Source: a virus. Taken from it: 28,842 nucleotides of DNA. The position numbers were made by a program, and so were the translations under genes. This document shows, one piece after another, positions 1,851 to 15,518 of this stretch; the first letter of the stretch is position 1, and each line of letters opens with the position of its first letter. The stretch is from the IMG/VR virus record IMGVR_UViG_3300046000_005823, positions 1 to 28,842 of that record. One strand, 5' to 3'. Under the pieces are notes generated by a model. The model did not search any database. It saw only the letters and a program-made list of their open reading frames with translations, and was not told the origin of the DNA.

Positions 1851-2447
1851 TTATTTGATGTGTACAATTAACGCAGACTCTATATTTTCTATATTAATCC
1901 ACTCATAGCTTTTTACTTTAGGATTAGAAGTAACGTATTCTTCTATGTCTTTTTTGCTGTATCTATTATGATATAAATTTTGAGAACTATCATATCCTAT
2001 ATGCTCACTATTATCACTAGGAGGTATAAAAAATATATGAATTGCAATATTAGATGCTATTCTAATAATTTCAGTTAAAACAGGTTGAAATTTAGGCTGA
2101 TGTTCTAATACATGTCTAGAAAAAGCAACCTCTGCAAAATCTGAGGCTAGTCTTGTATTTTCAGCCGACGCTAATACCATTGGTACTCCTAATTTAGAAT
2201 TTCTTTCATTAAGTATTATACTGCTATCTACTCCCGTATATTTAAGTTCTGGGTATTCTTTTTGATAAGCAAAAAATTCAGTAGCATTACCGCATCCTAT
2301 ATCTACTAAGCTAGTATATTTTTTTTCTTTAATATAGTTTCTAAAAAATACTTTAGAACGACTATTACTATCCCCAACCCAACTAGCGAATTCATCATAT
2401 CTATCAGTTAGATTATCATCCCACCACGTTTGTTTAAATTCAAACAT
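1851..2447 (-). CDS. Class I SAM-dependent methyltransferase
   Basis: A 198-aa protein with the Rossmann methyltransferase core. Motif I is VDIGCGNATE (residues 48-57), the acidic residue that holds the SAM ribose is in TGVDSS (D74), an ASAEN segment (93-97) matches the adenine-contact region, and SRHVLEHQ (110-117) matches motif IV. No target-recognition domain is present, so it looks like a small-molecule, sugar or protein methylase rather than a DNA methylase. Its start overlaps the end of the GT6 gene by 8 bases, which suggests translational coupling and shared work. The likely job is methylating a sugar or residue in the structure made by the two upstream glycosyltransferases. The coding sequence looks even more AT-rich than its neighbours, compatible with recent acquisition. 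Confidence 0.75.
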   Translation of the reverse strand: MFEFKQTWWDDNLTDRYDEFASWVGDSNSRSKVFFRNYIKEKKYTSLVDIGCGNATEFFAYQKEYPELKYTGVDSSIILNERNSKLGVPMVLASAENTRLASDFAEVAFSRHVLEHQPKFQPVLTEIIRIASNIAIHIFFIPPSDNSEHIGYDSSQNLYHNRYSKKDIEEYVTSNPKVKSYEWINIENIESALIVHIK

Positions 2448-3207
2448 AAATTATTATATTATTGATTATATCAAATATTTTATTTTTGTTATTATGTATA
2501 TCTTTTTTATGTTGTTCGATATCTAAAGTTGGATATCTAGTTTCTCCTATTCCTCCTTTATCGCTTATCGCAAAAGCAAACTTATCGCAAGGAACGGTGT
2601 ATGTTGGAGGATTAAAGTGAAAGTATTTGTTTATATAACTTTCATCATTCACTCCAGGTTCGTATCCTATCTTTTTATCTTCTATCTGATAGTGTATGAG
2701 TGTGCTACAGAATTCCATTAGTAGATTAGTCTTTCCACCAAAAAAAGCTCCATAGTGATATGTATATGGTAGTTCACTATCTAATGGGACATAAGCTTTA
2801 GATTGAGGATTTCTATCGAATCCCGCTCCGTCTTTTAACCAGTCACGATTTCCGTAGTGTTCTCCTCCTACCAAATCTCCTAAAAACCAGTCTTCTACAA
2901 AATCTCTGTGTACATTAGTATCCGCATCAAAGTAGTAAACGTAATCACAATCTTTTTCAATAACTTCTTTTATTGATACTATATTTTTGAATTTTGAATT
3001 AGTTCCTTCTTGCCAGTTATCGTGCTTATCGTAATGATAACTTACGTCTATATCGTCTGATATATAATCTTTTGGGTCTTGATCTGAGAAAAGGTAGAAT
3101 TTTACTTTTCTTTCTCCCTTGTAATAGTGATTAAACCTTTTTATGAATCTAACTCCTAAAACAAAATATGCATTGGTAGCTAAAATAACTATTCCTATTT
3201 TTTTCAT
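2440..3207 (-). CDS. GT6-family (ABO-like) glycosyltransferase
   Basis: Very likely a GT-A fold retaining alpha-glycosyltransferase of family GT6, the family of vertebrate blood-group A/B and alpha-1,3-galactosyltransferases. Counting from the longest possible start at 3216, visible landmarks are KVKFYLFSDQ (38-46), YYFDADTNV with a DXD motif (D97, D99), FLGDLVGGEHYG (111-122), YHYGAFFGG (153-161) and NDESYINKYF (190-199). All follow GT6 order. Known bacterial members mostly have NXN in place of DXD; this one keeps DXD, implying metal-dependent catalysis. I prefer the ATG at 3205-3207, because it forms an ATGA overlap with the stop of the upstream glycosyltransferase and gives 255 aa; the longer start at 3216 adds three residues. 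No membrane anchor, so a cytoplasmic enzyme. Donor and acceptor are unknown. Confidence 0.75.
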   Translation of the reverse strand: MKKIGIVILATNAYFVLGVRFIKRFNHYYKGERKVKFYLFSDQDPKDYISDDIDVSYHYDKHDNWQEGTNSKFKNIVSIKEVIEKDCDYVYYFDADTNVHRDFVEDWFLGDLVGGEHYGNRDWLKDGAGFDRNPQSKAYVPLDSELPYTYHYGAFFGGKTNLLMEFCSTLIHYQIEDKKIGYEPGVNDESYINKYFHFNPPTYTVPCDKFAFAISDKGGIGETRYPTLDIEQHKKDIHNNKNKIFDIINNIIIYV

Positions 3208-4160
3208 AACAAACAAGTTTTTGTTTCTACTTCTTTTATTTCTTGGTAGTATAGGTGACTACAGTTATCGTCTTTTGTTCTTAAGCTTAAATTATAAGGA
3301 AGAGATTCTCTATAATTAGCTTTATAAAACTTTCCACCACATGCACAAGTTACTCCTGCATTATGATAGATAGTGGTCTCTTCCCATCTATTGATGGTAT
3401 CAGTTCCCCAACAAAAGTCCATTTCTTTTACTACTTCAGTCTCGTTTCCTTTTGTCCATCCATTCCAAAGCACTGCCCACATATCAGCACACCATATTTG
3501 TAGTTCATGGTATGAAGGATCCTCTATTTTCTTTTGTACATTTAGTTGTGTGATCTCATAATAGAGCTTCTCACAGTCTGATTCTACCTTATCCCAGAAC
3601 ATCCAATCTACATTCTTAAGTATGTATTGAGCTCCTCCTGAATTGTCATTCATGAGCTTAGGGATCATCTTGGGCATCTTTACTATTTCACACATTTTAT
3701 CATATACGTCTTGACCCTTAGAGATAATATAATCGTAGTTGATGTAACTGTTAGTATCGCTTAAATACCATATATCATCGTCTAAAAACTTAGAGAAGTC
3801 AGGATTCTTAGTAAAAGCTATATCACAATCGTGGTAGAATATAGCCTCATACTGAAGTTCTGGATGCTTCTTAAAATGTTGCTTAAGTACATTAGGTCTT
3901 ATAGAAGATATATAGCGAATAGGTTGTTCTCTTGTGTCTTGGTAAAAAAAGAACCTTACAGTATTGTAGTGAGAAGACAGCTTGTTCCACATCTCTACAG
4001 TCTCTGGTTTGCTTGTGTCATCATTAGGATTCCAAGCGACTACGATGTCTATATTATTAGGATTAATACCTCTTTTGATGAAGTTATTTATCATAACCTC
4101 AACTTGCCAAGCATAGTATACTAGTCTTGGCTGAGCGCAAATGTAACGTAAATTTTTCAT
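3204..4160 (-). CDS. Putative GT-A type glycosyltransferase
   Basis: A 318-aa protein with glycosyltransferase features. The N-terminal part (1-115) looks like a nucleotide-sugar Rossmann region and ends in IFYHDCDIAF with a DXD-type motif (D111, D113). A GGAQYI element (175-180) and ADMWAVLWNGW (225-235) follow. Near 274-279 there is a cysteine-bearing CACGG segment. The arrangement recalls large GT-A families such as plant hydroxyproline arabinosyltransferase or serine galactosyltransferase-like proteins, but I cannot assign a CAZy family. No signal peptide or membrane helix. It starts 22 bases after the Thr-rich adhesin and couples by ATGA to the GT6 gene. A role in O-glycosylating that adhesin is an attractive inference; modification of a host glycan or of phage DNA are alternatives. 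Confidence 0.6.
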   Translation of the reverse strand: MKNLRYICAQPRLVYYAWQVEVMINNFIKRGINPNNIDIVVAWNPNDDTSKPETVEMWNKLSSHYNTVRFFFYQDTREQPIRYISSIRPNVLKQHFKKHPELQYEAIFYHDCDIAFTKNPDFSKFLDDDIWYLSDTNSYINYDYIISKGQDVYDKMCEIVKMPKMIPKLMNDNSGGAQYILKNVDWMFWDKVESDCEKLYYEITQLNVQKKIEDPSYHELQIWCADMWAVLWNGWTKGNETEVVKEMDFCWGTDTINRWEETTIYHNAGVTCACGGKFYKANYRESLPYNLSLRTKDDNCSHLYYQEIKEVETKTCLL

Positions 4161-4182
4161 AACATTTTTTTATTTAGCGTAA

Positions 4183-5838
4183 TTATAGAGAACAAGCTCC
4201 ACCACAAGTCGTAAATTCTCCAACTGAGGTATCTAATACATATCCAGGTCCTGAACCAGTTGTTCCTACAATTAAATATACATGATTAATATCCGAAGCA
4301 TCTGGGTAGAACTTACCTGTATTTACTGTTTGACTACTAGGGAATGATACTGTTATTCCACTAACTACTACAGTACATGTAGAGCACTGGTACTTATCGG
4401 CTATATAATGACTATATATTACTTCTGTTGTAGTCGTACTAGTTGTAGAAGTGGTAGTAGTTGGAGCCAATGTAGTGGTAGTTGTCGTACTAGTCGTAGT
4501 GGTTGGAGCTATAGTCGTTGTAGTTGTCGTACTAGTCGTAGTAGTCGTAGGCGCTACGGTTGTTGTAGTACTAGTTGTTGATGTAGTACTTGTAGTAGGC
4601 GCCGCGGTAGTGGTAGTACTTGTTGTGCTTGTAGTTGTTGTTGGAGTCGTAGTAGTAGTCGTGCTAGTAGTACTTGTAGTCGTAGTAGTTGGAGGTCCCG
4701 AATATGGAATCATCGCGTCTTGATACTCCTCATCTGTAATAATGATTACTCCTTGAGAATATAATACATTTCCTACGTGATTATTTTGAGTATATATAGT
4801 ATTTGATAGATAATCTTTCGATGAATATATTACACTAAGTCCTCCTGGAATAGAAGATCCCATGGGTTCTGCTGCTATGCTAGCAGATATTTGTGATTGA
4901 GTATTATTATAGACCTCGATTCCCATGGAGCCAGGATTACTTGGATCTGGGATACCTGCGTTAGTTACCACGTATTTTATATTATGAGTACCCGCGGTTA
5001 GACTAATTGGATATATATGCCAATATCTAAAATTAGTTCCATTACCATCTGGAATTCCTAAACTAACTGTTAAATTATCGTCTATATAAACAGATCCATA
5101 ATTATCGCAACCAATTCCAAAATAATATGTACCAGCAGTTACAGTGATATTAAACTGTATAGCGAAGTCTCCAAAATAAGTTAACGATTTTGCTGACCAA
5201 AGACCAGAGTAGTTTAATCTTCCCGTTTGATTTGCGGTAACTGGATTAGTCCAAAAAGTACCAGCATATGATCCTCCTGTATAAGATGTGTTCCATTCTA
5301 ATGATGTACCAGTTCCATTTATAGAATATCCTGGAGAATATAATCTTACTCCAGATGATGCGTATGCCACGTTAGTTGATGGTTGTGATCCTGTAGTATA
5401 GGTATCTATAACATTTCCATTTCCATCATCAATTAGTCTATATGTACTACCAGAAATAAGCAAACTTTTTCTAGCAATTTGTTCTCCAAAAGCAGTTCTA
5501 GGAATTCCTATGACAGTAATTTCTGCACTAGAGCTAGTTGGAAAATATCGATAATCATTATCAAAAGTTCCTTCTGCTGCTGTAGATTGAATTGAAGGAT
5601 TCCAAAAGCTTGAACTACTTAATAAAGATCCTGTAAGATACTCTTGATAGTAAAGCTGTTTTACTAAAGCATAGTTTAAGTAAGTTACTCCGTCAGTATT
5701 AAACGAAGTATTTATCCCACGATTAACTGTAATACCGTTTGCAGTAAACGATGAGCTATCGTAACTGGCTGAGTATTTAAGTAGAATCGGAGTAGTGGAA
5801 ACTTCTGAACGTTTTATTGTGTTCTGTCCGCGACTCAT
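4183..5838 (-). CDS. Tail adhesin with PA14-like domain and mucin-like Thr/Ser linker
   Basis: A 551-aa structural protein, probably a tail-fibre or receptor-binding adhesin. Residues 1-150 are a polar beta-rich region that may attach it to the tail. About 165-330 resemble a PA14/GLEYA-type sugar-binding beta sandwich: FAIQFNITVTAGTYYFGIG, an acidic GSVYIDD element, and LTAGTHNIKYV are typical of that fold. Residues 384-471 are almost pure Thr/Ser, built of six proline-started units of about 14-16 residues. The C-terminal ~80 residues form a cysteine-containing domain (CSTC, CGGAC) that could be the binding tip. Thr is encoded by mixed ACN codons, so the tract is kept at protein level rather than by triplet slippage. 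Two glycosyltransferases follow directly. PA14 assignment is moderate, adhesin role inferred. Confidence 0.65.
   Translation of the reverse strand: MSRGQNTIKRSEVSTTPILLKYSASYDSSSFTANGITVNRGINTSFNTDGVTYLNYALVKQLYYQEYLTGSLLSSSSFWNPSIQSTAAEGTFDNDYRYFPTSSSAEITVIGIPRTAFGEQIARKSLLISGSTYRLIDDGNGNVIDTYTTGSQPSTNVAYASSGVRLYSPGYSINGTGTSLEWNTSYTGGSYAGTFWTNPVTANQTGRLNYSGLWSAKSLTYFGDFAIQFNITVTAGTYYFGIGCDNYGSVYIDDNLTVSLGIPDGNGTNFRYWHIYPISLTAGTHNIKYVVTNAGIPDPSNPGSMGIEVYNNTQSQISASIAAEPMGSSIPGGLSVIYSSKDYLSNTIYTQNNHVGNVLYSQGVIIITDEEYQDAMIPYSGPPTTTTTSTTSTTTTTTPTTTTSTTSTTTTAAPTTSTTSTTSTTTTVAPTTTTTSTTTTTTIAPTTTTSTTTTTTLAPTTTTSTTSTTTTEVIYSHYIADKYQCSTCTVVVSGITVSFPSSQTVNTGKFYPDASDINHVYLIVGTTGSGPGYVLDTSVGEFTTCGGACSL
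4423..4692 (-). repeat. Six-unit degenerate tandem repeat encoding Pro-(Thr/Ser) units
   Basis: Inside the adhesin gene, about 270 bases encode six tandem units of the form P-T4-6-S-T-T-(S)-T4-6 with one or two hydrophobic or Ala residues before the next Pro. Units are 42-48 bases and diverged at third codon positions. Such arrays expand and contract by recombination, so length may differ between related phages. Confidence 0.8.
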
Positions 5839-5844
5839 TTGTTT

Positions 5845-6876
5845 TTACCAATCTAGTTTTACTCTTACTAAGGCTTCTTTAGTGAAGTCTTTTACCAAAG
5901 GCTTAGAAAGTTTAGCTACTGCTAAAAGTTCATTGTTATTATTGTACATTCCTACAGTTGTGATATAGGTCTGAGGACTGTTTATAAAGTTAGAGTAGAT
6001 CATTTCTCCAGAAGATCCTGAGATAAATGAAGGATTGGTTGTGTAGTTATATCCAGCATTAGGTATCCTTGCAAATATATAATCAGAAGATATAGTCTCT
6101 TGAGAGTTCAACTGAAAGTTTGCACTTGCAGAGATTGCTTGATACACTGTTTGTAGGTTAGCGATATTGGCTGCGGCATTTGTGGTAGCTGAAAGAGTTA
6201 TTGCTAATCCACCTTGACCAACTGGACAACCCAACGCTTTAGGATTCAATACGATTAGTCCGATATCTGGAAGAAATAGACCATAACTTCCTGAAGCAGT
6301 ATACCCTTTAGCAAAAGATCCTGAAACTAGTGGAGTACTTTGAGCACTTCCATTAGATCCTGATACAATATTGTAAACTCTTCCTCCATCTACAAAAGTT
6401 ACAATGCTAACGTCTTTAGAATTATCTGTAAGATTAAGAGAGTCTGATCCTACTTTTAATCCAAGATTGAATGTTCCTGGAAAAAGACTTTCTTTATATC
6501 TATTTCTATCTATTTGAACTGCGATAAGATCTAAAGAAGCAGTATTTCCTGTTCCAAAATTAAAGTTAGTTTCGGCATCGCCAAATATAATATTCCTATA
6601 TTGACCAAAGTTAATCCTTGTTGGACTTACTCCTGGAACTAGAGAATTTATCGGCGCTGATCCTGATCCGTAAATTTGACCGTAAGCTATTGAAAATTGA
6701 ATAGCTGAATTGCTTAGGTTCGAACCAGTATTATATACGTCTAGATAGTATGTCTTATCAGCAGAAGAAGCAGTAAAAAATGTAGCTAAAGTTGGAATGT
6801 TTGTACTCCAAGCTGGTGCTGTTACTGAATCTGATGATACTACAAAGTCTGATGGGGCTAGTGCTGTAAATGACAT
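5845..6876 (-). CDS. Tail/baseplate structural protein with duplicated C-terminal domain
   Basis: A 343-aa protein rich in Ser, Thr, Asn and Gly with predicted beta structure, typical of phage tail proteins. I see no enzymatic motif. It starts MSFTALAPSDF, and the last ~80 residues (NPSFISGSSG..., TTVGMYNNNNELLAVAKLS) are shared with the 100-aa protein at 1527-1829. The gene sits between the 219-aa structural protein and the adhesin, separated by 12 and 6 bases, and so belongs to the same tail-tip set. The A-rich leader (AATAACAAACG) before the ATG has no Shine-Dalgarno sequence. A role as a baseplate or fibre-connecting protein is inferred from context and composition. Confidence 0.6.
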   Translation of the reverse strand: MSFTALAPSDFVVSSDSVTAPAWSTNIPTLATFFTASSADKTYYLDVYNTGSNLSNSAIQFSIAYGQIYGSGSAPINSLVPGVSPTRINFGQYRNIIFGDAETNFNFGTGNTASLDLIAVQIDRNRYKESLFPGTFNLGLKVGSDSLNLTDNSKDVSIVTFVDGGRVYNIVSGSNGSAQSTPLVSGSFAKGYTASGSYGLFLPDIGLIVLNPKALGCPVGQGGLAITLSATTNAAANIANLQTVYQAISASANFQLNSQETISSDYIFARIPNAGYNYTTNPSFISGSSGEMIYSNFINSPQTYITTVGMYNNNNELLAVAKLSKPLVKDFTKEALVRVKLDW

Positions 6877-6888
6877 CGTTTGTTATTG

Positions 6889-7548
6889 TTATTGATTAAC
6901 TTTTGTGATTTGAACAGGTACGCTAATTCTAGCTCCAGAATCACGACCAACAATTACTAAAGTGGTATAAAGTGTACTGTTAGTTCCAAATAATGTATTA
7001 ACAGTTGTAGCTGTGATATTGATAGTCGTTCCTATTACTGTCTTACTTACGTTAGTTCCTATAGTAGTAGTTGTATTTAGAGCAGTGGCTTCTGCAGTAT
7101 TTATTCCAACTCCGTTAAATGCAGCCATAGTTCTTACGTCTCCTATAGTTGCAACGTATCCTGATGCTTCAAATGTTGAAGTTGCTCCAAGATAGTTCAA
7201 AGTTTGAGGAGTTATTGAAAGAGAAGATCCTTGCTTTAATACTACATTAGAAGTTCCTACACTAATGACAGGAATCTTAGCAGTTCCACGAGGAAGAGTA
7301 ATAAGTTTGTATTTCATTATCTCCTGATCATTTGGATAAGCTTGCAGTATTGGCATAGCTTCGATAGCTTCACCATAAAATGCTGATCCAGAAGGATGAT
7401 TAGGATTATATAACGTGTAATCTATTTCATCATCTGAAAGAGAGAACTGCGTGATTTGAAAAGATCCATCGTTTCTAGAGAGAAGTTCTCTACCTTTTTT
7501 TGTTAGGATGGCATCTACCACCACTGATGTACTACTTAAGTATGACAT
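6889..7548 (-). CDS. Conserved-type tail/baseplate structural protein
   Basis: A 219-aa protein. The N-terminal ~90 residues (starting MSYLSSTSVVVDAILTKKGR, then ITQFSLSDDEIDYTLYN) are a compact segment I associate with structural proteins next to gpI/gp7-like wedge genes in large Bacteroidetes and T4-like phages; I cannot give a family name. The C-terminal half is Thr/Val-rich, beta-prone and repetitive (TNTT, TTINITATT), like fibre shafts or Ig-like modules, and ends RISVPVQITKVNQ. No catalytic motif. The gene starts a small cluster after a 65-base gap holding an ATATTTAT motif, and is followed 12 bases later by the 343-aa protein. Probably a baseplate periphery or fibre-anchor protein. Confidence 0.55.
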   Translation of the reverse strand: MSYLSSTSVVVDAILTKKGRELLSRNDGSFQITQFSLSDDEIDYTLYNPNHPSGSAFYGEAIEAMPILQAYPNDQEIMKYKLITLPRGTAKIPVISVGTSNVVLKQGSSLSITPQTLNYLGATSTFEASGYVATIGDVRTMAAFNGVGINTAEATALNTTTTIGTNVSKTVIGTTINITATTVNTLFGTNSTLYTTLVIVGRDSGARISVPVQITKVNQ

Positions 7549-7613: not shown

Positions 7614-10600
7614 TTATGGACTTGGAGGCAATAAATTTTGTGATCTTAATGATTTAACAGTATTACCTGAATTTAATTTATCTTGTTCAGAAATGTATTG
7701 AGGGAAAAGCAATCCTTCTTCAACTATTGTAGAATCTTTTGGATTATATCTTAGCATAACATTAGTTTCATCAGGTACGTGTTTCCATACAATATATCTA
7801 CAAGCTCTCCAACGAGCTCCAGAAAAACTTTCTGTTGGAACAGTTGATCCAGAACTAAATAGAGCTAAGTTTACCGGACGATCTAACTCTGAATATATTC
7901 TCGATCCTGTCACTCCAGAGCCTGTAAAAATTACGTTTTTAATTGTGTATTCAAAGTTTTCATTCCATCCAAGTCGTGAAGCTGAATCATAAAAAGATAT
8001 TCTATCGCCCGTATTTAAAGTAAATGGAAGTAATACATTGTCTAAAAGAGAGGCTGTAAAGGCTGGATCAGAAAGTGAATCAAATGTTATTCCATTTGAG
8101 TAATAATACGCCAATTCTGAATTAAAAACCACTTGATTTGATTCGCTTATATAATATAGACAGGGTTGTGAACTAGTTACAAAAGGCGTATAATAAGTTA
8201 GCGTACTTGATCCACCACCAGTTCCTCCGCCGCCGCCACGAGATATAATGCCTTGAATATATACATATCCCTCATCTATAGCAGTAGGCCAATATGTAGA
8301 AGATGCTGCGCTTCCTATTGCAGCAGTGCTAGTTCCACCACCACAAGATCTTGCAGTATAAGCGCTAATATAAGCTACTTGAATATTATTATTAGAAGTT
8401 CCGTTAAGTACACTTATATATACCACTCTAGCAGTATATGTGCTAGTAAGAGGATCTTCTGGTAAAGTTATAGAAGCCTCTACATTTACATTATATGGGA
8501 CATTTCCATTATTGTAAGTAGCTTTTAGATATATATCGTATTGACTAGTATCGCATGCTTCTATAGGAGTTTCAGTTACAATCCAACTCATAGTCCAGTT
8601 AGCCGGTAATAATACAGCATCTGATGGGGTAGCCCCTCCACCAGCAGTTATAGTAATTTCAATAGGACTAGTTAGATTGTATGTTTGAGTTACCGCAGAT
8701 CCACTAATGTTATGTAATATGGGAAGGTATCTAAATCCTCCTTCGAATATTTGAAGTGTTGGATTATTAGCTAATTGTTGAGAATATGGATTCTTTTCAT
8801 CATACTTAAATAAAGAAACGTCTACATTTTCTCCTGACTTATATACGTTTTGAACATCAAATATATTGGTATTGACTTTAGTTAGATCTAAAATATTTTG
8901 ATTATTATCTATTAGATATTTTATTTGCGCATTAGATCTATTTGGAAAAAATAAAGACGCACTATATATGTCTATTAGATAAGCATATTGATATTTTATC
9001 TTATCAATTGCCGCAGTTTTACCATATGAAGTATCACCAGCTGTGTAGGTATTATATGTATGACTTTTAGTATTAGACCCATAATACCTAGGATCGGTAA
9101 AGTGTCTAGTAGCGTAGTTATAATCTTGTAGTTGCGCGTAAGGATTATTTGGATTAGTATATGTGTTATAGTTATCGTTTACAGAATTGTCTATAGACTG
9201 CGTGATTAGTCCTAAGTTTATTGGAGTCAATTGATTGCTAGTGTAATCTAGATCAAAGTATTTTAGAGATCTTACTGATCCTGTTACATTTTGATACAAA
9301 GCTCCTAAGTTTACTGAGATTGGACCAATAGATCCAAGAGTTCCATTAGAGTTTTCTGATTGACTTAAAGCATCTCCATTAGTAACGGTTACTTCTGTTC
9401 CTCCAAATTCTCCAGTTAATTTTTCTACTCCTTGAGAACTTGTAAAAGGTACAAATCCAAGAGGAGTAATTCTATCTAAGCTCCATTCAGTAGATCCGCT
9501 TATTATGTTTCCAGGTTCTGCTGAAAGCGTAAGCATATCTATCGATTGAGATATAATGTCTACGCTTGCACTAGGTTCATGCCTAGCGTATTTGTTTCTT
9601 TCTAGTATATGACTCTTAACTATGATACCTGTAGAAAGATTTGTTCTAGCAGGAACAAAGTCCTTGATAGTTTTAAACAGAGAGTTATTAAAATACTTTA
9701 TTAGTCTTATGTATTCCCAAACGCTATGAGGTTGAGTATACGAAGAGAAGTAAGCATTACTTGCACTTACTAATGGAGCATAAGATGAAGAGTATTGATC
9801 ATTAGGATTTCCTATAAGATTATCTATATTGAAATATCCAAGAGATGAAGTAATATTATCGTTAAGAATATCTGCTATAGAAAAACCAACTTCTATGTTT
9901 GTAGAGTTTAGTCGATTATCATTTTGATAATACTGTAAAGTTGTATAAGGAGATAATAAACTAGAAGAGAGATAAAGACTCGAAGTAACTCCAGTTATTT
10001 TGCTATTGTTTATTTCATTAACTCCATCTACATTATACCTGTTATATCCACCAAATTCATTAACTGTAAGAATATTGCTAGGAATTCCATAAATAGAAAT
10101 CAATGCTTTTACTGCTCTTTGAGTACCTCTAGACTTTAAAAGATATGGAAGATTATGATAGATTCTTTTATAGATCTCCTGTTGAATCTGTTTAGATCCC
10201 ATAGATCCAGTTGGTAAACTAGAAGTTACGTATGTTGATATCTTTTCAGATCCTGTTGGGGGTAGTAATGTACCATCTTCATTATAACCAAATAGATCAT
10301 AATATACATTGTCTGATATACTTGTGTTAGTATATAGTTCCATTCCTAGGCTCTTTAAAGCATCGGAAACCATATCTAGAGATATGCCAGTAAAAGGATC
10401 ATTTGTAGCATTAAACCTATTAGTTACGTCTTTATAATAAATCCATATGTTATCAAAGTGTTGTGCAATCATGTCAACAAAAGTAACATATGGCGCATTG
10501 TTTGAATCGTCTAATAGATATTGAGGAATTGATCCTCTTAAAAGATCTTTATTTGTATCATCATAAAGAGATGACGAGTATAAAAGAGATGAAGTATATT

Positions 10601-13255: not shown

Positions 13256-15103
13256 TTACATTGTTACTACACGACCTTGAATATCTGATTGCGGATATTT
13301 TACTTCAAATATAGATGGATCTAAACTAGGATAAACTACTCCATTTAGTATTGCTCCAGGTACATCATAACTAAATTCAGAATATCCATTTGTAGATCCA
13401 AACTTATTTACTATTTGTACGCTTTTAACTGTTTGAACTCCATTAACTTGATCGAGTAGAGTATATATGTCTGAAAGTATTATAGGTTCGTTTATCTGCC
13501 AATTATCTACGTTAAAGAAGTCTTGTAATTGAATTAAACATCTAGCTACTACGTCTTGTCCTGTAAAGTTAGGTCTTACAGTTATATCGAAATTACATCC
13601 AATGTTTATAACATAAGCAGGTTTGATATTAATAGCATCCGTCATCATCCTATATTCAGAAAGATAAGTCTGTAAATTCTGAACTAGCGCTGATGAAGGT
13701 TGAGCTAAGTTACCATTATTGTCTAATCCAAGAACGTACATGCTAACAAGTACTTGATCTCTTTCTGATGGATTGTCTTCTATGTAATTACTAAAAGTAG
13801 CATCGTCTTTTGTTACGTAAGCTTTAGCAACTTTACCAAATTTAGGACTCATACTTAAGGTTCTAGCTAGATAGTCTTCTTGAGTTACTGCTCTTAGTTG
13901 ACTTGAGAATTCTGCTTGAATATTTTGCCTTAACTCTTCTACAGTATCTCCATCTCCTCCACCTGATGCGGGATTCGGATTGTTACTCACTACTGTACTA
14001 GTATCTCCTGAACCAGCATTTATTGATATAGGAATAGTTAATTGATTAGATAACACATTATATTCTGCTCCTCCTCCCGCTAAATAAGAAATGGTTAGCG
14101 TTGTATTTTGAGGAGCTAATCCATAAGTTTGTGTAGTTACAAAGTTAGAAGGATCAAAAGCCGTTTCTAATAATGTTAATCCAGTAGTGATTCCAACTCC
14201 AACTGAATTAGGATTAGGTATTACTGCTGAATCAGCTACTGAATTAATTCCTGGACCAAATTCTAATACCAAACTATTATCTGTCTTGAATCTTGTAGTA
14301 AACCTTCTTGGAACGTACACTTTTTGAAGCATGTACGGAACCTGATTTGCTGATTGATATAGAGAAGGATAATTAAGAGCAGTATTTTCTACAGGATTAA
14401 GTATGTAGTCTTGAGCTAAGTAAGGCACTTCGTACCATGTATTACTATTAGAGTCTACTACTTTTAATACCGAAATAATATCTGAATCTTGTATGTTTAC
14501 AGTAGCGTATCTTTTAGCTGCTCCAAAAGTAGCTGTAGTAGTTTTGACTTGTCCAGATATCGCTTGAGTCTTCTTTTTAAGAAGGTATTTTGTTGGATTA
14601 CCAGAACCATCAGTTAGATAAACAGAAACATCAGTAGGATCCAAAGAAGAAGATATTGTAAAGTCTACTTTATTTGGCACATAAAAGCTTACATTATTGC
14701 TAACATTCGACTTTACTTGCATTCCAGGTTGGATAGTAATCGCGTTTGTCCAATCGGGAGTTTTGTTTCCAGAAGCACCAACTACACCTACTTGCATGTA
14801 TACATCTAGATCTGCTATGGCTGCAGAAGTCACTTTAGGTCTATATCCCAACATGTACGCCATAGTGTAAAGATTATTCTTTTGCTTGGCATATTGTAAG
14901 AAAGTTTCTTGTAGCTGATTATCAAGATAAAAAGAAAGAACGTCTCCTACATAAGAAGCCATTTCAATGAACATGCTTCCTGGTGAAGCTTGACTGAAAT
15001 CATTATAAACGGTTGGATAGTATGACTTAGCATACTCTATCAACTCATTTTTAAAGTTAGAAAAGTCTTTATTTAAGTACTTTATATCTGGACTATTTAG
15101 CAT
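13256..15103 (-). CDS. 6: Baseplate wedge protein gp6-like (baseplate J family)
   Basis: A 615-aa protein equivalent to T4 gp6, which forms the dimeric ring of the baseplate inner wedge that triggers sheath contraction. The N-terminus carries the hallmark of the baseplate J/gp6 family: SPGSMFIEMASYVGDVLSFY (about 40-59), then ETFLQYAKQKNNLYTMAYMLGYRP. The C-terminus has the typical trailing region (INIGCNFDITVRP, DVVARCLIQLQDFFNVDNWQINEPIILSDI) that ends many J-type proteins. T4 gp6 is 660 aa, so the length fits. It follows the gp25-like gene by 1 base, the order also seen in T4 and in most contractile-tail clusters. No sign of damage. Confidence 0.88.
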   Translation of the reverse strand: MLNSPDIKYLNKDFSNFKNELIEYAKSYYPTVYNDFSQASPGSMFIEMASYVGDVLSFYLDNQLQETFLQYAKQKNNLYTMAYMLGYRPKVTSAAIADLDVYMQVGVVGASGNKTPDWTNAITIQPGMQVKSNVSNNVSFYVPNKVDFTISSSLDPTDVSVYLTDGSGNPTKYLLKKKTQAISGQVKTTTATFGAAKRYATVNIQDSDIISVLKVVDSNSNTWYEVPYLAQDYILNPVENTALNYPSLYQSANQVPYMLQKVYVPRRFTTRFKTDNSLVLEFGPGINSVADSAVIPNPNSVGVGITTGLTLLETAFDPSNFVTTQTYGLAPQNTTLTISYLAGGGAEYNVLSNQLTIPISINAGSGDTSTVVSNNPNPASGGGDGDTVEELRQNIQAEFSSQLRAVTQEDYLARTLSMSPKFGKVAKAYVTKDDATFSNYIEDNPSERDQVLVSMYVLGLDNNGNLAQPSSALVQNLQTYLSEYRMMTDAINIKPAYVINIGCNFDITVRPNFTGQDVVARCLIQLQDFFNVDNWQINEPIILSDIYTLLDQVNGVQTVKSVQIVNKFGSTNGYSEFSYDVPGAILNGVVYPSLDPSIFEVKYPQSDIQGRVVTM

Positions 15104-15104
15104 C

Positions 15105-15518
15105 TTATATGTTTTGTATCTTTAGTAAAATTCCATCTGTCTCTTTAGAACTCTTTATTGTATAACTAAATTGTATGTTAATTGTACTTCTATCTGGTTG
15201 ACCTATGATATTCAATTGTGTTATTTGTACATTAGGAAACGCATTTTCTATTTGTGTTTGTATAGACTGCTTCATATCTTCTACTGTACTTTGCGTTATT
15301 GATTCAAAAAGTCTAGATCTTAAACCCATACCGAAATTAGGATTCATAGGTCTTTCTCCTAAATCAGTTAACATGTAGTTAAGTATGTTATATTTTAGTT
15401 GCTCTTTAGTTGTATATACAGTAGAGAATACATTTTCAGCAGCAAAAGGCAACTTAACTCCTACTCCTGTAGAAGGCTTAAAATCTATGGGCGATATTTT
15501 TCTAAGATTATATGCCAC
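15105..15518 (-). CDS. 25: Baseplate wedge protein gp25-like
   Basis: A 137-aa protein of the GPW/gp25 family, whose T4 member is 132 aa. The hallmark segment GERPMNPNFGMGLRSRLFES (residues 54-73) is intact, including the ERP and NPNFG core and the following R-x-LFE. A C-terminal beta region has the usual TINIQFSYTI strand. gp25 links the gp6-gp7 wedge core to the first sheath ring. It lies directly before the gp6-like gene and 2 bases after the 152-aa gene. The start MAYNLRKISPIDFKP matches family style, where a short positively charged lead precedes the core. Confidence 0.9.
   Translation of the reverse strand: MAYNLRKISPIDFKPSTGVGVKLPFAAENVFSTVYTTKEQLKYNILNYMLTDLGERPMNPNFGMGLRSRLFESITQSTVEDMKQSIQTQIENAFPNVQITQLNIIGQPDRSTINIQFSYTIKSSKETDGILLKIQNI

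Follow-up and report, generated by a model that had tools for sequence, protein, structure and literature searches.

Does a phage glycosylate part of its own virion with enzymes encoded beside the acceptor? The question is raised by a locus in a 28,842-nt stretch of viral DNA, IMG/VR record IMGVR_UViG_3300046000_005823 (the window). ADH (4183–5838), recognised as an ORF with relatives in other phages, encodes a 551-residue tail-module protein with a dense Thr/Ser tract and is the putative glycosylation substrate. Downstream of it lies GTA (3204–4160), followed by GT6 (2440–3207, ATG start at 3207), encoding a family 6 glycosyltransferase, and by MT (1851–2447), encoding a SAM-dependent methyltransferase in a variable slot. 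All four are on the minus strand. One ATGA, at 3204–3207, holds both the stop of GTA and the start of GT6, and the frames of GT6 and MT have 8 bases in common (2440–2447); a longer form of the GT6 ORF starts with TTG at 3216. The two glycosyltransferases and the methyltransferase with overlapping frames, which the preliminary description placed after the tract gene, are thus confirmed. The slot ends at a conserved right border, a minus-strand gene at 1527–1829 whose 100-residue product is a relative of the C-terminus of the protein encoded at 5845–6876; it is not thought to belong to the glycosylation system. The gene module of ADH also holds relatives of T4-like baseplate wedge proteins (13256–15103 and 15105–15518).

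The tract covers ADH residues 382–471 (nt 4426–4695, minus strand), begins with PPTTTTTSTT and consists of six Pro-started units, as was described earlier, with 90 residues counted in place of 88. Thr accounts for 64 of these residues, Ser for 11 and Pro for 7. Its Thr codons are mixed (ACT 30, ACA 18, ACG 10, ACC 6), so the tract is not a one-codon DNA repeat, and a microsatellite artefact was rejected as an explanation. The N-terminal region (residues 1–146, nt 5401–5838, minus strand) is conserved in the alignment of relatives, including those whose middle and C-terminal parts differ, and is probably the virion anchor, judging from this alignment. The middle region (residues about 150–345, nt 4804–5391, minus strand) is PA14/CBM-like in some relatives on weak evidence (E 5.6e-4 in L002, under the curated cut-off), and a Pfam search found no PA14 match in the window ADH itself. 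The 80 residues after the tract (nt 4183–4425, minus strand) correspond to unrelated ends in the relatives. The structure model of ADH (pLDDT 49.9) is too poor for use, its Foldseek matches being a hint at most, and the name adhesin is less certain. A cultured relative was also sought for a 677-residue protein, and none was found.

GTA matches the profile PHROG_4417, labelled 'unknown function', over its whole length (residues 5–312, E 1.6e-62). Genes of this family occur in many Gram-positive phages, where they are unannotated ('prophage pi2 protein 34'). A Pfam search of GTA to E 0.1 gave nothing significant and no GT8 match (DUF1689 at 0.022 was the only hit), and GTA is therefore not filed as GT8. 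A sequence search against solved structures returned a single match, at E 0.93. The model of GTA (pLDDT 97) has a GT-A fold, with glycogenin as the best structural match (Z 15.4, 221 residues, 3.3 Å), followed by LgtC (14.4) and GlyE (13.1). A DxD motif, D111 and D113 (nt 3822–3830, minus strand), is invariant in aligned sets of 51 and 21 members. H266, G269 and K280 are likewise invariant in both sets and may correspond to the C-terminal HxxG...K motif of GT8 enzymes. From the fold and the conserved motifs, GTA is predicted with high confidence to be a GT-A-fold glycosyltransferase nearest to glycogenin.

Whether the neighbourhood of tract and enzyme extends beyond this phage was examined in 125 non-redundant GTA loci, excluding the window itself and loci with too little upstream sequence. 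Within the 1 kb upstream of GTA, a run of Thr (T6+ or T3(S)T3, any frame) was found in 37 of the 51 loci from uncultured viruses, in 15 of the 16 from cultured phages and in 31 of the 35 phage-type loci on bacterial genomes. Other same-strand ORFs of the same loci served as controls and gave 12/371, 6/66 and 32/210, respectively. The GTA counts are far above these matched controls, with Fisher values that treat the loci as unrelated. The upstream profile, which like the control counts was taken after 90% redundancy removal, peaks in the kilobase before GTA and shows almost no Thr runs after it. All 36 prophage-type loci (L259–L294) have, in the 900 nt before GTA, a stretch rich in Thr (T15 of 7 or more), and T15 of 10 was reached within 600 nt in 15 of the 20 cultured phages sampled from 74 records. 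The remaining five comprise MA9V-3, with the tract further upstream; bIL285 and L233, with six Thr past the capsid stop; PT1-4, with an inserted gene between; and 521B, with weaker PTT repeats. The association has exceptions: 14 of the 51 viral loci have no such run in the 1 kb before GTA, and an 8-Thr stretch was absent from 6 of the 12 GTA records scanned whole, some of which may be fragments.

An in-frame tract-bearing ORF lies within 700 nt upstream of GTA in 121 of 184 loci. With the tract masked, the carriers fall into 31 similarity groups. They range over capsid, tail-tube, Ig-like and fibre proteins, and some are annotated as major capsid or major tail proteins. The earlier proposal that the target is specifically a fibre does not hold, as the proteins that bear the tract in cultured phages are major capsid, major tail and Ig-like ones. 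Laboratory phages with the pair include CHPC836 of Lactococcus lactis, whose capsid protein carries the tract, and Lactobacillus phage PLE3 (host L. casei BL23). The position of GTA relatives beside Thr tracts in so many unrelated phages suggests, at the sequence level, a widespread sugar coating of virions.

Among the relatives of this phage, tract and GTA were expected to be gained and lost together. Of 349 confirmed relatives in one search 80 were used, and of 588 in another likewise 80; of 80 loci of this phage's relatives, 43 are complete and 37 end before the right border. In the complete loci both are present in 10, neither in 30, GTA alone in 3 and the tract alone in none, mostly as predicted. 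The incomplete loci contain both in 1, a tract with no GTA in the sequenced part in 10 and neither in 26. Eight-Thr DNA was found in none of the 19 whole records of relatives lacking a slot GTA. The enzyme in the company of no Thr-rich protein, named beforehand as the refuting observation, is seen in a few loci (L042, L069, L074, L084, and L320, L321 and L324, where GTA adjoins a short, tractless ADH). A tree-corrected test (4 starred pairs, sign test) was not significant because this phage group offers too few independent changes, and joint transfer of adjacent genes could make the co-occurrence look stronger than it is.

GT6 and MT behave in a different way from GTA. GT6 matches Pfam Glyco_transf_6 (E 6.8e-17, 61.7 bits against a gathering cut-off of 25) and reads DAD where BoGT has NAN; family 6 glycosyltransferases transfer alpha-linked Gal or GalNAc. 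MT matches Methyltransf_11 (E 1.1e-7). In the relatives the same slot, hypervariable and flanked by conserved borders, holds GT6, GT2, GT61-like, Fringe-like and Gly_transf_sug enzymes, as well as methyltransferases of sugar type and one hexapeptide transferase. GT6 was rejected as a constant partner of the tract: L011 has GT6 and no GTA in the locus, its record of 118,848 bases is free of 8-Thr stretches, and at many tract loci the slot is filled by other genes. The view of substrate and enzymes side by side therefore stands for the pairing and has to be corrected for the enzymes; GTA is the key partner of the tract, while GT6 and the methyltransferase are two among many exchangeable extension genes. 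The suggested methyl cap gains support, since other methyltransferases, including the FkbM type, occupy the same slot in relatives.

We consider it likely that the locus is a phage-encoded virion O-glycosylation cassette, in which GTA primes the Thr tract and the enzymes encoded after it elongate and cap a glycan that varies. GTA, as a retaining-type GT-A enzyme, would set the first sugar on tract threonines of the neighbouring structural protein, GT6 would attach the second, and the methyltransferase would cap the glycan or modify it further. What the sequences show is the tract and the genes, their association, the predicted fold and the gene exchange; the tract as acceptor, this order of enzymes and their sugars are what we infer. 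The slot after GTA (after GT6 in this lineage) would serve as a cartridge of exchanged genes, so that near-identical phages would bear different glycans on tracts of one kind. The most likely benefit would be a shield or a variable surface coat of the virion; the preliminary description named adhesion, protection against proteases and the hiding of epitopes as putative uses.

The glycosyltransferases may instead target phage DNA, host LPS or capsule, the site by ADH being one where accessory genes tend to insert. The hypervariable slot between conserved borders and the GTA loci that lie away from structural genes agree with this, and glycosylation of phage DNA and of serotype structures is well known (cited in PMC12619734). 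Such targets are nevertheless unlikely. In Bacillota phages GTA stands alone in head-tail operons, directly after a tract-bearing capsid or tail gene, with many unrelated carriers, and the tract is on the upstream side, not generally around GTA. The cellular homologues also adjoin ribosomal peptides: GG-leader peptides are found in 10 of 23 cellular GTA homologue loci (L236–L258), two of them with TTTTTT just past the leader.

A poorer prospect is that the tract is a flexible, repeat-expanding linker for swapping C-terminal adhesin domains, with the enzymes as functionally unlinked neighbours. The parts flanking the tract are exchanged in this phage group, and Thr tracts elsewhere often stand without a glycosyltransferase beside them. 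Among tract loci gathered irrespective of GTA, only 14 of 120 have GTA; the next gene, checked in 36 of the 94 GTA-less loci (58 had no suitable one) and scanned in 35, is GT2-type in 4 of 35. The idea that every Thr tract needs an adjacent glycosyltransferase was rejected on these counts. Against a linker, the tract in Bacillota is mostly at the extreme C-terminus, with nothing left to link, the Thr codons are mixed, and the tract is strongly associated with one enzyme family, on one side only. That host enzymes glycosylate the tract, leaving the phage enzymes only to trim, extend or alter the glycans, is very improbable: Thr tracts lacking phage glycosyltransferases exist and the donor sugars are necessarily host-derived, but in hosts of three phyla the partner that stays constant is GTA and not an extension enzyme.

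The reading can be extended, and we lean slightly towards PHROG_4417 being a general family of Thr-tract-directed O-glycosyltransferases. With it, phages of Bacillota, Actinomycetota and Bacteroidota would put a sugar coat on their capsids, tail tubes and fibres, frameshifting in some of these phages adding the tract to a part of the subunits only, and swappable downstream enzymes would vary the glycan. A bacterial branch, represented in Sphingobacterium, would act on GG-leader secreted peptides, so that virion coats and peptide natural products would share one enzyme family. A PHROG_4417 gene with a Thr tract would then point to the phages that are glycosylated and to the sites involved, among cultured Lactococcus and Lactobacillus laboratory phages as well as uncultured ones. 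The unannotated 'prophage pi2 protein 34' gene would gain a function, the hypervariable slot would be explained as glycan variation, and there would be consequences for our view of how phages encounter antibodies, mucus and hosts. GTA-type enzymes are also small, genetically simple candidates for protein O-glycosylation.

To our knowledge, virion glycosylation of phages is known from few cases, and a search of the open-licence PMC literature found no paper linking Thr tracts, the PHROG_4417 family and phage glycosylation. Two reports attribute to the mycobacteriophages Che8 and Rita (Freeman et al. 2023) glycans at the C-termini of capsid and tail-tube subunits, with phage-encoded glycosyltransferases, as here (PMC12619734, PMC11256854). 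The Che8 system differs in its genes. The three annotated glycosyltransferases gp108–gp110 do not match the GTA profile at E 10 and are encoded at the far genome end, unlike GTA beside its tract; neither the capsid protein nor the major tail protein of Che8 carries a Thr tract, Thr making up no more than 4 of any 15 residues, and there is no Mycobacterium record among the 74 cultured GTA matches.

Glycogenin starts a glycan on a protein, and the adhesin served by GlyE is rich in Ser. GTA resembles these two and LgtC in structure, yet with 5–11% identity over aligned residues, and its acceptors would be Thr tracts, unlike those of glycogenin and other GT8-type enzymes. The window GT6 belongs to the same family as the enzymes of the cyanophages P-SSM2 and ACG-2014f and of Bacteroides (BoGT), but, unlike them, is tied to GTA and a Thr tract. 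Bacteria possess O-glycosylated Ser/Thr-rich linkers and serine-rich-repeat adhesins with enzymes encoded nearby. The present locus shares with them the dense Thr/Ser tract and the adjacent enzyme genes, and is set apart by its enzyme family and by its location on the virion.

On the minus strand of the window, a virus record of 28,842 bases, a tail module with relatives of T4-like baseplate wedge proteins (nt 13256–15103 and 15105–15518) lies upstream of ADH, a 551-residue protein (nt 4183–5838) that carries a Thr/Ser tract. The next genes are GTA, a proposed glycosyltransferase (nt 3204–4160), GT6, a family-6 glycosyltransferase (nt 2440–3207), the methyltransferase MT (nt 1851–2447), a 100-residue protein (nt 1527–1829) and, last of the series, a SegE-type GIY-YIG gene (nt 1019–1498). 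The frame overlaps among GTA, GT6 and MT given in the preliminary description are confirmed on the window sequence. The 100-residue protein is partly paralogous to the C-terminal end of the 343-residue protein encoded at nt 5845–6876 (43% over 74 residues), and its gene is the conserved right border of a variable slot that begins after GTA.

The tract, residues 382–471 of ADH, begins with PPTTTTTSTT and contains 64 Thr, 11 Ser and 7 Pro in 90 residues, arranged in six Pro-started units with mixed codons. Beyond the conserved N-terminus, the C-terminal domain behind the tract (nt 4183–4425 in the window) is swapped among relatives (L010, L013, L014 and others). Loci L003 and L043 have a similar 80-residue C-terminal end, and the middle part of L043 differs.

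GT6 and MT are both assigned clearly by Pfam. The closest solved structures to GT6 are Bacteroides BoGT and the ABO transferases; BoGT has the motif NAN where the window GT6 has DAD. Its relatives among cultured phages are mostly from cyanophages. GTA matches no significant Pfam family, and falls in PHROG_4417, of unknown function. An AlphaFold2 model built with 51 members (pLDDT 97, pTM 0.93) consistently matches GT-A enzymes: glycogenin (Z 15.4), LgtC (14.4), WbbM (14.0), UGGT (13.9), LARGE1 (13.1) and GlyE (13.1). Residues D111, D113, H266, G269 and K280 are invariant in alignments of 51 members and of 21 divergent members. By its predicted fold GTA would be a GT-A-type enzyme; the fold alone does not prove the function.

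GTA loci were collected from 80 viral contigs kept of 349, 15 loci found via GT6, 20 of 74 cultured phages and 61 bacterial-genome loci, leaving 125 after redundancy removal at 90%; counts were made where the upstream sequence sufficed. A Thr run (six or more Thr, or three on each side of a Ser, in any frame) lies within 1 kb upstream of GTA in 37/51 viral, 15/16 cultured and 31/35 phage-type genome loci, against 12/371, 6/66 and 32/210 for other same-strand ORFs of those loci, the last rate being raised because some prophages bear a second tract 2–2.5 kb upstream. Within 300 nt the counts are 8/51, 13/16 and 29/35; the viral count drops because the tract there is internal to the carrier, with a domain behind it. 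All 36 loci L259–L294, from Bacillota and two Propioniciclava, have at least seven Thr in 15 residues within 900 nt upstream.

The tract is on the major tail protein in phiFL1A, SA2 and TPWB06, on the capsid protein in 4995_1, CHPC836 and Planchet, and in Semele and PLE3 on small proteins that carry the annotation major tail protein. In 521B an Ig-like protein bears weaker PTT repeats, and in MA9V-3 the carrier is a 428-residue protein. With the tract masked, 121 carriers form 31 groups by similarity, an upper figure because a few carriers are short or fragmentary. The tract is what these differing carriers have in common. In Staphylococcus phage PT1-4 an additional gene (L224, nt 2317–2997), whose end resembles by eye a homing-endonuclease repeat, separates the tail region from GTA.

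In several phages the tract runs on out of frame beyond the stop codon of the gene for the capsid or major tail protein (L098 nt 4649–4927 and 4117–4713; L223 about nt 2742–2885; L227, L270, L099, L228 and L259). The continuation is +1 after CCC-TAA in SA2 and RQ1, −1 after CCCCAAAAGC in Planchet and L270, and −1 after AAAGTAA in the VPE25, nattely and Listeria loci. Programmed frameshifting may put the tract on just a fraction of the subunits. In bIL285 (L097, after nt 4946) and its near relative L233, an in-frame NDKTTTTTTRHD directly behind the capsid stop codon may reflect read-through or be the remnant of a tract.

The relation runs one way and has exceptions. The presence of the enzymes in related phages without any Thr-rich protein had been named as a finding that would count against fiber glycosylation, and in L320, L321 and L324 GTA does adjoin a 176-residue ADH lacking the tract. 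In some viral loci GTA is distant from structural genes. Scanning 12 whole GTA records, which may be fragments, located an eight-Thr stretch elsewhere in six and none in the other six. Of 120 loci from an unbiased scan for Thr-tract DNA, 14 contain GTA, which in 12 lies directly downstream of the tract; in loci without GTA, 4 of 35 next genes scanned are GT2-type. GTA therefore predicts the tract, and the tract does not predict GTA.

Longer GTA homologues of 384–711 residues occur in Bacteroidota genomes (L236, L240–L258), mainly Sphingobacterium, Pedobacter, Mucilaginibacter and Chitinophaga. Among 19 longer cellular homologues, only 1/19 loci has an upstream Thr run, so the tract accompanies the phage branch and not the fold. 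GG-leader peptides are encoded in 10/23 cellular loci L236–L258, a count with no matched control rate, and 3/4 of those peptides compared with NCBIfam match the RiPP leader TIGR04149. In L252 (nt 5630–5866) and L254 (nt 5609–5857) the core opens with six or seven Thr right behind the leader. Neighbors resemble thioredoxin-type proteins and, judged by eye, peptidase-domain exporters. These loci offer an independent lead, pointing to ribosomal Thr-containing peptides as candidate acceptors of the family.

Close relatives were anchored on the conserved neighbor at nt 6889–7548, and 43 of 80 extend without a gap as far as the right border. Of these, 10 have both GTA and tract, 3 GTA alone, none the tract alone and 30 neither (Fisher's test, 1.5e-7); the 26 loci non-redundant at 90% give 7, 3, 0 and 16 (1.8e-4), both tests ignoring relatedness. 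Eight consecutive Thr codons are found in none of 19 whole records of relatives lacking GTA at the locus. A tree of 44 rows needs nine changes for GTA and six for the tract, with at most four GTA/tract pairs on supported branches and none in the opposite direction. The joint gain and loss named as a check in the preliminary description is thus consistent in direction, but the sign test is not significant and the within-group test is weak. Recurrence on unrelated carriers is the stronger argument.

The slot holds glycosyltransferases of GT6, GT2, Gly_transf_sug, Fringe-like and GT61-like types, methyltransferases of types 11, 21 (FkbM), 24 and 25, a hexapeptide transferase and radical SAM/SPASM genes, several of these matches being below the Pfam cut-off. 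The near relatives of the window, with GTA 88–94% identical, have GT6 in common and completely different genes past it: a 436-residue protein and FkbM in L002, MT in the window, and, in L018 and L020, further genes that resemble glycosyltransferases and methyltransferases. As read from the genes, such exchange would be expected for glycan variation. In L040 (nt 8954–9985), L041 and L204 a radical SAM/SPASM protein fills the slot, which is unexpected for a glycan cassette.

Most likely, GTA would add the first sugar onto Thr of the tract in the cytoplasm during virion protein synthesis, GT6 and others would lengthen the chain, and methyltransferases would cap it. We prefer a shield or variable surface as the likely use of such a glycan coat, because the most abundant virion proteins of other phages bear the tract and the slot varies.

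Virion glycosylation is known in mycobacteriophages, as cited in PMC12619734 and PMC11256854. In mycobacteriophage Che8, none of gp108–gp110 matches GTA, and the capsid and major tail proteins lack a Thr tract. No description of the pair was found in the open-licence PMC literature. The GTA–tract pair therefore appears to be a new form of a known process, the glycosylation of phage virions.
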